Part shown: positions 3 through 17,309 of the stretch, in pieces | Layout of the letters: each line of letters starts with the position of its first letter | Position numbering within the stretch: the first letter of the stretch is position 1 | DNA from: Phycisphaerales bacterium | Lineage (GTDB): Bacteria > Planctomycetota > Phycisphaerae > Phycisphaerales > UBA1924 | DNA: 41,763 nt | NCBI GenBank assembly: GCA_029260475.1 | Contig: JAJDDE010000167.1 | Coordinates: forward strand, 1 to 41,763 | Reading direction: 5' to 3' | Notes under the pieces: generated by a model | Seen by the model: the letters and a program-made list of their open reading frames with translations, nothing else | The model's database searches: none | Told to the model about the DNA's origin: nothing | Translations under genes and position numbers: made by a program

Positions 3-683
3 CAGGGCAAGCGCACCGGCGTGCAGACCGCGATGGACCTCCTGAAGATGTACGGCCCCTGGTACTTCCAGTGGAAGCTCCGCAACTACATCTGGCGCAA
101 GGTGATGGGCAAAGTCGTCAACGGACTCATGGGCTCCACACGCAAGTGCTACACCGTCGGCGCCGTCGCGAAGAAGTACGGCGTGCCCGTCCACGACATG
201 CCCGACGTGAACTCCGAGGAGTTCCTCCAGATGCTCCGCGACAACGGCGTGGAGTTCATCGTCTCAATCTCCGGCACCCAGCTCTACCGGCGCAAGCTCC
301 GCGACCAGACGCCCTTCGGCATCGTGAACTGCCACGGCGCCCTGCTCCCCAAGTATCGCGGCCTCATGCCCAGCTTCTGGACCCTCGCCAACGACGAAAA
401 ACGCGGCGGCGTCTCGGTCCACTATGTGGACAAGAAACTCGACAACGGCCCCATCGTCGTCCAGAAGGAGTACGCGATCCACAGCCACGACACCCTCGAA
501 GACGTCATGGCCCGCTCGAAAGACCTCGCGGCCGAGGCGATCATCGAATGCGTGCAGAAGGTCGAGGCGGGCCTGAAGCCGCAGGACATGATCCCGAACC
601 CGATCGAAGAGCAGAGCCATTTCTCGATGCCGACGAAGGACGACGTGAAGCGGTTTAAGGCCGCGGGGCATCGGTTCTTTTGA
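3..683 (+). CDS. Formyltransferase-family protein, 5' end outside window
   Basis: Partial gene: the frame is open to the window edge, so the true start lies upstream; a GTG at 21 is only the first possible start visible. The visible 220 residues (numbered from 21) carry the formyl_trans_N core of the Fmt/GART/ArnA superfamily: NCHGALLPKYRG at 103-114, where Asn103 and His105 correspond to the catalytic pair, and LDNGP with Asp141 as the third catalytic residue. Such enzymes move a formyl group from 10-formyl-tetrahydrofolate to an amine. It is too divergent, with a short C-terminus, to be the housekeeping methionyl-tRNA formyltransferase. The following deacetylase and glycosyltransferase suggest N-formylation of a sugar nucleotide or polysaccharide amine; that substrate is inference. 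Confidence 0.85.
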   Translation, partial: QGKRTGVQTAMDLLKMYGPWYFQWKLRNYIWRKVMGKVVNGLMGSTRKCYTVGAVAKKYGVPVHDMPDVNSEEFLQMLRDNGVEFIVSISGTQLYRRKLRDQTPFGIVNCHGALLPKYRGLMPSFWTLANDEKRGGVSVHYVDKKLDNGPIVVQKEYAIHSHDTLEDVMARSKDLAAEAIIECVQKVEAGLKPQDMIPNPIEEQSHFSMPTKDDVKRFKAAGHRFF

Positions 684-695
684 GATGGTGAGATG

Positions 696-724
696 GTGAG
701 ATGGTGAGGTGGTGAGATGGGGAG
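696..724 (+). repeat. Left arm of 29-nt inverted repeat
   Basis: Reads as GTGAG, then ATGGTGAGGTGGTGA, and onward. The first 20 positions match the reverse complement of 1142-1170 exactly; three of the last nine differ. It contains the ATG at 717 used by the four-helix-bundle gene. Confidence 0.8.
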
Positions 725-1127
725 TGGTCGCGAAGGTCAAAGCACCGGTACATTCGCGAAGTCGGTGCGCTCGTATCGTGATCTCGATGTCTGGAGCGGC
801 GGCGTGGAGCTCACGGTCGGCGTGTACCGGTTCTGCAAAACGCTCCTAGGCGATGAACGCTTCGGGCTCATCAGCCAGATGCAGCGAGCGGCGGTGAGCG
901 TCCCTTCGAACATCGCCGAGGGGTACGGCAGGGCGTCTCGACAGGAATTTATTCGGTTCCTCCGGATCGCTCAGGGATCGCTCAAAGAACTGGAGACACA
1001 GATCATCATCTGCAAGCGCGTCCACCCCGTGAACATCGAAACGAGCGATACGCTTCTGACGGATACCGACCGCCTCGGCAGGATGCTCCGCAACATGATC
1101 CGCTCACTCGAGGGTCGAACAACATGA
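717..1127 (+). CDS. Four helix bundle protein (S23/Avd-like)
   Basis: A 136-residue protein of the four-helix-bundle family first known from intervening sequences in 23S rRNA and related to the Avd accessory protein of diversity-generating retroelements. Hallmarks seen: SYRDLDVW near residue 18, the amphipathic core ISQMQRAAVSVPSNIAEGYGR (about 51-72), and EFIRFLRIAQGSLKELETQ (about 76-94). The ATG at 717 lies in the inverted repeat and adds 16 non-conserved residues; a GTG at 765, just before the conserved start, is an alternative. The stop codon overlaps the next start (ATGA), so translation is probably coupled. The family's biochemical role is not established; nucleic-acid binding has been proposed. 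No 23S rRNA or retroelement is present here. Confidence 0.85.
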   Translation: MGSGREGQSTGTFAKSVRSYRDLDVWSGGVELTVGVYRFCKTLLGDERFGLISQMQRAAVSVPSNIAEGYGRASRQEFIRFLRIAQGSLKELETQIIICKRVHPVNIETSDTLLTDTDRLGRMLRNMIRSLEGRTT

Positions 1128-2035
1128 CGACCATCGACCCGCTCACCACTTCACCACCTCACCATCTCACACACGCCTTGTCTTTCGACATCGAAGACTG
1201 GTTCCACATCGTCGAGGTCAAAGCCGTCGAGAACCCCGACGAGTGGCCGCAGCTCCACGCGCAGTCCACGCTCGTCGAGCGGTACACCGATCACATCTTG
1301 GAACTCTGCGCCGACGCCAACACCAAGGCGACGTTCTTCGTGCTCGGCTGGGTCGCCGAGCGCCACCCCGCCCTGGTGCAGCGCATCTGGGAGCAGGGGC
1401 ACGAGCTCGGGACGCATTCGTACTGGCACCGCAAGGTGTACGAACTGGACCCCGAGACGTTCCGCGAGGACATCGAGCGCTCGATCCGCGTGATCAAGGA
1501 CGCGGCACCCGATGCGGACGTCGTCGGGTTCCGTGCGCCGAGCTTCTCCATCACCGCGGGCACGGAGTGGGCCTTCGACGTGCTCCTCGAGTGCGGCCTC
1601 CGCTACGACGCCTCGCTCTTCCCGGGCAGCCGCGGGCACGGCGGGTACATGTGCCCGTCCGGTGGGCACAGCGTGACCACCCCCAAGGGCCTCACCATGC
1701 CCGAGCTGCCCATGTCGCTGGCGCCCGTGGGTGTCGGTCCGTTGAAGAAGCGCATGTGCTATTCCGGAGGCGGCTACCTGCGGCTGCTCCCGCACCGGTT
1801 CATCGAGCAGGGCATCGCCCACGAGGCGGGCGAGGGGCGCCCGACCGTGGTGTACCTGCACCCGCGTGACTTCGCGCCAGACTGCCCGAGTGTGCCCATG
1901 CCGCCCCACCGACGGTTCAAGTGCTACGTGGGCACCTCCACGACCACCGCGAAGCTGCGCAGGCTGCTGCGGGATCACCGCTGGGCGCCGTGCCGCGAGG
2001 TGCTGGGGATCGATGCTGGACCCGCGTCCGCGTGA
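1124..2035 (+). CDS. Polysaccharide deacetylase, PEP-CTERM-locus type (NodB fold)
   Basis: A 303-residue carbohydrate esterase family 4 enzyme. NodB motif 1 is DIEDWFH (22-28), metal-binding histidines lie in GTHSYWH (His98, His102), followed by TFFVLGW, FRAPSF and a late LHP motif. The DIEDWFH form and the C-terminal extension match the subfamily found in exosortase/PEP-CTERM exopolysaccharide loci. It should remove N-acetyl groups from a nascent or exported polysaccharide, and fits its formyltransferase and GT2 neighbours. Its first 17 residues (MTTIDPLTTSPPHHLTH) are encoded by the inverted repeat and do not belong to the family; homology begins at ALSFDIED. A TTG near 1178 is the only nearby native-looking start. 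Confidence 0.9.
   Translation: MTTIDPLTTSPPHHLTHALSFDIEDWFHIVEVKAVENPDEWPQLHAQSTLVERYTDHILELCADANTKATFFVLGWVAERHPALVQRIWEQGHELGTHSYWHRKVYELDPETFREDIERSIRVIKDAAPDADVVGFRAPSFSITAGTEWAFDVLLECGLRYDASLFPGSRGHGGYMCPSGGHSVTTPKGLTMPELPMSLAPVGVGPLKKRMCYSGGGYLRLLPHRFIEQGIAHEAGEGRPTVVYLHPRDFAPDCPSVPMPPHRRFKCYVGTSTTTAKLRRLLRDHRWAPCREVLGIDAGPASA
1142..1170 (-). repeat. Right arm of 29-nt inverted repeat
   Basis: Reads CTCACCACTTCACCACCTCA and onward; its reverse complement matches 696-724 at 26 of 29 positions. It lies wholly inside the deacetylase reading frame and encodes the Thr/Ser/Pro/His-rich N-terminus. Confidence 0.8.
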
Positions 2036-16787: not shown

Positions 16788-17309
16788 GTGAAACGCATCG
16801 AAGGACAACGTCACGCGAGGTTCCTGACGTTCTCGTGCTATCGGAGGATGTCCCTTCTCGGGACACCGACACTCAGAGACGAGTTCGCCGACGCACTCGA
16901 TCGTGCGCGCACGCATCACCGTTTCGCTCTTTTCGCGTGGGTCGCCATGCCAAACCATGTACACCTGTTCGTGATGCCCCGCGACACGGAGCAGACCGTC
17001 GCCACGATTTTGCGCGCCATCAAGCAGTCCCATTCGCAGCGAGTCATCCGTCGATGGCGAGCTCTGGACGCACCGATCCTCGCTGAGATCATGGACGCAA
17101 AAGGGGTCGCGCGCTTCTGGCAGGTCGGCGGCGGTTACGACCGCAACATCTTCTCCGAATCCGAGTTCCGAGAGAAGATCGACTACATCCACTACAACCC
17201 GGTCCGTGCCGGGCTCGTGATGACGCCTACAGCGTGGGCGTGGTCTTCAGCCCAATGGTGGGCAACACGAGACGAGAAGGCGATCCCGATGGACCCACTC
17301 CCGCTCTGA
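16788..17309 (+). CDS. REP-associated tyrosine transposase (RAYT, Y1/IS200-like)
   Basis: A 173-residue Y1 transposase-fold protein. The HUH metal-binding motif is MPNHVHLF (His57, His59). FWQVGGGYDRNIF (Tyr117) and YIHYNPVRAGLV (Tyr133, Tyr136) are the typical downstream RAYT blocks containing the candidate nucleophilic tyrosine. RAYTs are domesticated IS200-type enzymes that recognise and process REP palindromes. Here it lies between two 116-nt palindromic elements, with a half element just upstream, which is strong context support. Length is complete and no frameshift is seen. GTG start at 16788. Confidence 0.93.
   Translation: MKRIEGQRHARFLTFSCYRRMSLLGTPTLRDEFADALDRARTHHRFALFAWVAMPNHVHLFVMPRDTEQTVATILRAIKQSHSQRVIRRWRALDAPILAEIMDAKGVARFWQVGGGYDRNIFSESEFREKIDYIHYNPVRAGLVMTPTAWAWSSAQWWATRDEKAIPMDPLPL

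Follow-up and report, generated by a model that had tools for sequence, protein, structure and literature searches.

S23 proteins share a four-helix-bundle fold and a pentameric assembly with the Avd accessory proteins of diversity-generating retroelements. In Coxiella, the 23S rRNA intervening sequence is 428 nt long, contains an S23 ORF and ends in a 28-bp terminal inverted repeat; tandem GACAGAT heptamers lie by the ORF, and their number varies among strains (PMC4990558). The S23 protein of X. campestris is a toroidal homopentamer, and a 1993 proposal by Ralph and McClelland holds that the intervening-sequence ORF serves mobility (both in PMC4990558). The function of S23 (also termed IVP) and the origin of the rRNA intervening sequences have been open questions since about 1990. 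Short tandem heptanucleotide repeats are also known from cyanobacteria, as STRR. Xanthomonas, Nostoc and Beggiatoaceae are among the bacteria in which heptamer arrays have been described (PMC4692102, PMC4679880), including the GGGAATC arrays of Xanthomonas with 70-75 inverted pairs (PMC4692102) and TAACTGA arrays (PMC4679880), and neither of these two papers mentions S23. Our search of the non-subscription literature found no work linking S23 elements with heptamer arrays, and an earlier description is possible.

We analyzed a 41,763-nt stretch of DNA (the window) from a Phycisphaerales bacterium whose genome assembly comprises 3.43 Mb in 210 contigs. Near its start, an S23 gene is located between two host genes and is bracketed by inverted repeats, with the following features:

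3 to 683, + strand: formyltransferase gene (PF00551), flanking host gene, clipped by the window edge
681 to 728, + strand: upstream tandem array, 6.1 copies of the 8-nt unit TGAGATGG, starting within the formyltransferase stop codon
688 to 716, + strand: upstream arm of the inverted repeat, reaching 730 at 81%
717 to 1127, + strand: S23 (four-helix-bundle) ORF, 136 aa from the ATG at 717, conserved domain at 777-1091
1124 to 2035, + strand: polysaccharide deacetylase gene, TIGR03006-like (XrtA type), 238 bits against a cut-off of 276
1142 to 1170, + strand: downstream arm of the inverted repeat, from 1128 at 81%, in-frame leader of the next gene

The S23 protein exceeds the curated cut-offs of both family models, PF05635 (4e-34, 117 bits versus 33.8) and TIGR02436 (8e-34, 116 bits versus 24), and thus belongs to the S23/23S_rRNA_IVP family; its gene is the only S23 gene of this genome. 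No second ORF fits inside the element, and no recognizable transposase is encoded there. A preliminary description of this DNA had reported an inverted repeat around the four-helix-bundle gene. The repeat is real and has the reported length of 29 nt per arm, with 27 rather than 26 of the 29 positions complementary (E = 9e-5 against the whole genome), and a longer version extends over 43 nt at 81% (688-730 and 1128-1170). The inverted-repeat score is 23 at the S23 locus, compared with 14 or less at 389 other positions of the window. The arms are also, as described, built from a short repeated unit: both are arrays of 8 nt, and the upstream arm is the TGAGATGG array. This is the sole short-period array in the window, and no further copy with up to three mismatches was found in the whole genome. 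As described, the stop codon (1125-1127) and the downstream arm are 14 nt apart. The placement of the start codon inside the upstream arm is doubtful, because orthologues begin immediately ahead of a conserved RSYRDL-like motif, which makes the GTG at 765, about 40 nt beyond the arm, the probable true start.

At 1124-1180, the deacetylase reading frame takes in the downstream arm as its N-terminal leader, MTTIDPLTTSPPHHLTHALSFDIED, and an arm read as a deacetylase leader also occurs, with other units, in genomes G061 and G032. Elsewhere in the window, at 16827-17066, a Y1_Tnp (RAYT-like) gene is accompanied by a REP-like inverted repeat whose sequence bears no relation to that of the S23 arrays.

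The layout of an S23 gene between terminal inverted repeats is that of the 23S rRNA intervening sequences of Coxiella and Leptospira, whereas the window element is located outside an rRNA gene, between the formyltransferase and deacetylase genes. More generally, the S23 elements analyzed here differ from the rRNA intervening sequences in that they occupy ordinary intergenic DNA between protein genes, that each of their two arms is an array of period 7 or 8, and that gene-less relatives and clean empty sites exist. Since these parts are all present in the Coxiella intervening sequence, the rRNA inserts seem to belong to one class with the S23 elements. The earlier statement that the window copy is in neither the rRNA nor the retroelement context understated the rRNA link. 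A search of 20 S23 loci with Rfam for an rRNA context returned one tRNA only, and S23 was not matched in phage records.

To establish whether such arms are a general property of S23 loci, we oriented 110 S23 genes from 40 related planctomycete genomes (S23 genes are present in 40 of 61) and recorded the top-scoring inverted repeat in the 200 nt flanking each gene on either side, as had been suggested for this family. Arms scoring at least 14 were found at 80 of the 110 loci, compared with one of 274 equal-sized control positions from the same loci; the remaining 30 genes lack arms. In almost every armed locus the arms are tandem 7- or 8-nt arrays. The expectation that other copies would carry the same GTGAGATGG repeat was not borne out: each locus has its own unit (for example GGCACGAA, AGTGACGG, GGATGGC or TTTCTAG), alike in both arms of that locus, and the layout alone is shared. 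A single fixed repeat common to all S23 loci was rejected, as units are alike solely between S23 proteins above about 60% identity. The arm-gene-arm layout also occurs in Bacteroidota, Clostridia, Patescibacteria and cyanobacterial plasmids. When the planctomycete loci were combined with 24 array-bearing loci from other phyla, 99 had a clear period, which was 7 in 68 and 8 in 26 of them, and the arms had a median of 4.6 units on both sides (interquartile range 4.0 to 5.1). Mapped on the S23 tree, the period changes 13 times, compared with 21.7 times when the labels are shuffled (500 shuffles, minimum 16); unit length thus follows the lineage of the protein. The most surprising feature, absent from the preliminary description, is that the array ends drift yet match each other, with a period tied to the protein.

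Two observations on individual members may be added. An ENLxVY-type S23 clade (L031, L032, L056, L060 and L061) lacks arms in all five copies and is perhaps domesticated. In plasmid pANA02 of Anabaena sp. 90 (L282), a type I-D CRISPR operon has an S23 gene, flanked left and right by ACAGGTG arrays, between its cas6 and cas4 genes.

We also scanned for inverted arrays without regard to genes, in 1.19 Mb of six genomes. The scan yielded 18 inverted-array pairs, of which 11 have gene-free spacers of 0 to 114 nt; in the other seven the spacer measures 381 to 474 nt and encloses S23 in every case. Many of the scanned regions had been picked for holding S23, so the share of S23 is not a genome-wide rate; the informative part is the absence of any other cargo. 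An earlier scan of 400 kb with other thresholds additionally revealed one pair of period 10 with a 151-nt spacer. The units of the gene-less arrays resemble the S23 arms of the same genome much more closely than those of other genomes (mean score 13.1 versus 6.3 expected), with 10 of 15 matching at p 0.02 or less, where four of the 15 come from one module and are not independent. The S23 elements share with the bacterial heptanucleotide arrays an intergenic position, 7-nt arrays and lineage-varying units; they are set apart by long-spacer inverted arrays tied to S23, and the gene-less ones resemble non-autonomous partners.

The preliminary description had called for a comparison of loci with and without the unit. 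Clean empty sites were found, in near-identical flanks, for family members comprising both whole S23 elements and gene-less hairpins. In one planctomycete genus (g40; L199, L201-L218), each genome has many copies of a large gene module, which are about 90% identical to one another. Contig L199 holds an S23 element together with four gene-less hairpins built from that element's heptamer. The hairpins are missing from most copies of the module, in which three of the sites measure just 3, 9 or 19-24 nt. At site C, L215 and L199 carry hairpins with different units at the identical gene junction in different species, and one further hairpin site is filled in two copies with differing unit numbers. 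On a plasmid of T. variabilis, the filled site reads AAAAAGTAAT/element/GTAAT-TAAC, with GTAAT on both sides, and the corresponding sites of N. linckia and Fremyella, 97.5-100% identical, are empty (AAAAAGTAATTAAC). Plasmid pNsp_a of Nostoc ATCC 53789 reads GGTTCTA/element/TTCTA-GTTATG, and pNsp_c is empty at this position (GGTTCTAGGTTATG); one gene further on, pNsp_c holds a second, different S23 element (TAATG/element/TTATG), for which three copies, including pNsp_a, are empty. Gene-less hairpins behave likewise: one splits an S23 gene in a lichen Nostoc that has a near-identical intact copy elsewhere (L295 versus L292), and one in Brasilonema, built from the unit of the T. variabilis element, occupies the T. 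variabilis site. An indel scan of 50 kb in five plasmids recovered the known insertion site and no further one. Comparison of these filled and empty sequences shows that complete S23 elements, and likewise the gene-less hairpins that share their design, are insertions. Direct repeats are legible at three S23 elements only, as 5-bp repeats (GTAAT and TTCTA) and a 4/5 match (TAATG/TTATG); these three sites tentatively suggest staggered joining of about 5 bp, and TTCTA could belong to the array.

These insertions bear on a reading in which the arms act as RNA: they would pair into a long stem that carries S23 in its loop and serves RNase III cleavage or control of the S23 message, with mobility incidental. 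In Coxiella, RNase III cuts the intervening sequence, which shares this layout (PMC4990558). In addition, the upstream arm, relative to the gene, is the richer in G at 70 of the 80 armed loci, a strong polarity that may stem from ribosome binding by the array or from the strand it acts on. However, the arm mismatches show no excess of G.U (46) over A.C (56), the pattern expected where DNA copying, rather than selection for an RNA stem, maintains complementarity, and the insertions and gene-less copies require mobility regardless. We consider the RNA reading unlikely.

At the window locus, S23 lies between the same two host genes in six genera; in four genera the same junction is a 31-53 nt spacer without S23, and in one genus it is 245 nt long, also without S23. 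The six syntenic S23 proteins form one clade (SH-aLRT 95, in a quick tree of a short protein), so a single old insertion with later losses is the simplest history: the window element would have entered before the six genera split and been inherited or lost since. The arm units have diverged at this site, being GGTGAGAT in the window, GGCGAGAT/GGCGAGTG in G061, GGCGAGT in G033 and G025 and GGCGAAT in G017. The copy in G032 has decayed, and elsewhere the left and right arms agree within each genome. Since the substitutions and one length change run through all units of both arms, the arrays have evolved in concert. The earlier suggestion of a small mobile unit without a transposase fits the family, given its clean empty sites and same-unit gene-less relatives. 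It does not extend to a recent arrival of the window copy, for which the comparison gives presence or absence at the level of genera, with six genera sharing the site, each with its own matched arms, and four empty.

Joint drift of the arms at one site would also be expected if replication errors built them, by slippage and quasi-palindrome template switching, with S23 a bystander in permissive spots. Copy number does differ by whole units between close copies (Scytonema versus Trichormus), as among the Coxiella strains (PMC4990558). Such errors leave unexplained why all seven long-spacer arrays enclose S23, why arms occur at 80 of 110 loci versus one of 274 controls, why the period follows the protein tree and why empty sites exist. 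As a full explanation this is improbable to us, and replication errors probably account for the homogenization step alone.

Enzymes other than S23 were considered as the mobilizing activity. A reverse transcriptase might move the element with S23 as an Avd-like accessory, and both the annotation history and the preliminary description tie the fold to accessory proteins of retroelements. RVT_1 (PF00078) is absent from the window genome, however, and from the S23-rich genomes G006, G009, G010, G028, G029, G044 and G052, and we give this possibility very little weight. The S23 elements differ from Avd systems in that a reverse transcriptase is neither needed nor nearby; assignment of the window element to the Avd accessories of diversity-generating retroelements was rejected on the RVT_1 result for its genome. 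A Y1 transposase of the IS200/REP type (RAYT) might likewise mobilize the elements as it does REP sequences, and Y1_Tnp genes were found in all 14 genomes tested. The Y1 loci of the same genomes are flanked by unrelated REP-like palindromes without 7-8 nt periodicity, and mobilization by RAYT appears highly improbable. The S23 elements resemble REPIN/RAYT and MITE/IS pairs in having one small gene-bearing copy, several gene-less hairpins and matching ends; they differ in lacking a transposase, in their fast-changing array ends, and in the other repeats carried by same-genome RAYT loci. Membership in the REPIN/RAYT class, defined by a Y1 transposase flanked by the same repeat, was tried and rejected.

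The S23 protein itself is maintained. Cyanobacterial S23 pairs have a dN of 0.09-0.15 at a dS of 0.9-1.25 (dN/dS about 0.1-0.15), and because dN is far below dS, the protein is kept under purifying selection in these pairs. Its conserved residues are Q54, S61, N65, E68 and E91. S23 has no known catalytic fold, and these residues fit no nuclease motif known to us. Two solved relatives, PDB 2gsc (X. campestris XCC0516) and 2rld, have five chains each. A ring of five subunits and arms of about five units would be in keeping with one unit per subunit.

We propose that the toroidal S23 homopentamer recognizes the array in single-stranded or hairpin form, with about one unit per subunit, and brings the two arms together. 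The element, or a gene-less hairpin built from its unit, would thereby be marked for the replication and repair enzymes of the host, which would copy or join it at gene junctions and leave direct repeats of about 5 bp at some insertion sites. Arm-to-arm template switching in the hairpin would keep the arms alike while the unit drifts. Insertion, gene-less partners, the specificity of the arms to S23 loci, one unit per locus, concerted arms, an inherited period and purifying selection on the protein in cyanobacterial pairs are the parts of this model that sequence comparison shows. We favor, with some confidence, the model as a whole, in which S23 reads the arrays and host enzymes move the DNA, together with the assignment of 681-1170 as a resident copy of such a mobile element in minimal form, in which inverted 7-8 nt arrays enclose an S23 gene.

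A wider generalization is put forward tentatively, as possible but doubtful in its full breadth: S23 may be the recognition or mobilization factor of bacteria-wide minimal elements with self-matching array ends, in which unit length is set by the protein lineage, the sequence of the unit drifts and one pentamer serves each array. This would cover the rRNA intervening sequences, the cyanobacterial STRRs and the Xanthomonas heptamers. The empty sites, the matching gene-less partners and the inherited period make the 1993 mobility proposal directly testable, and the S23 elements are a candidate source for the abundant, unexplained heptamer arrays of bacteria. Should S23 move DNA despite having no known recombinase fold, this would be a new way to mobilize DNA.
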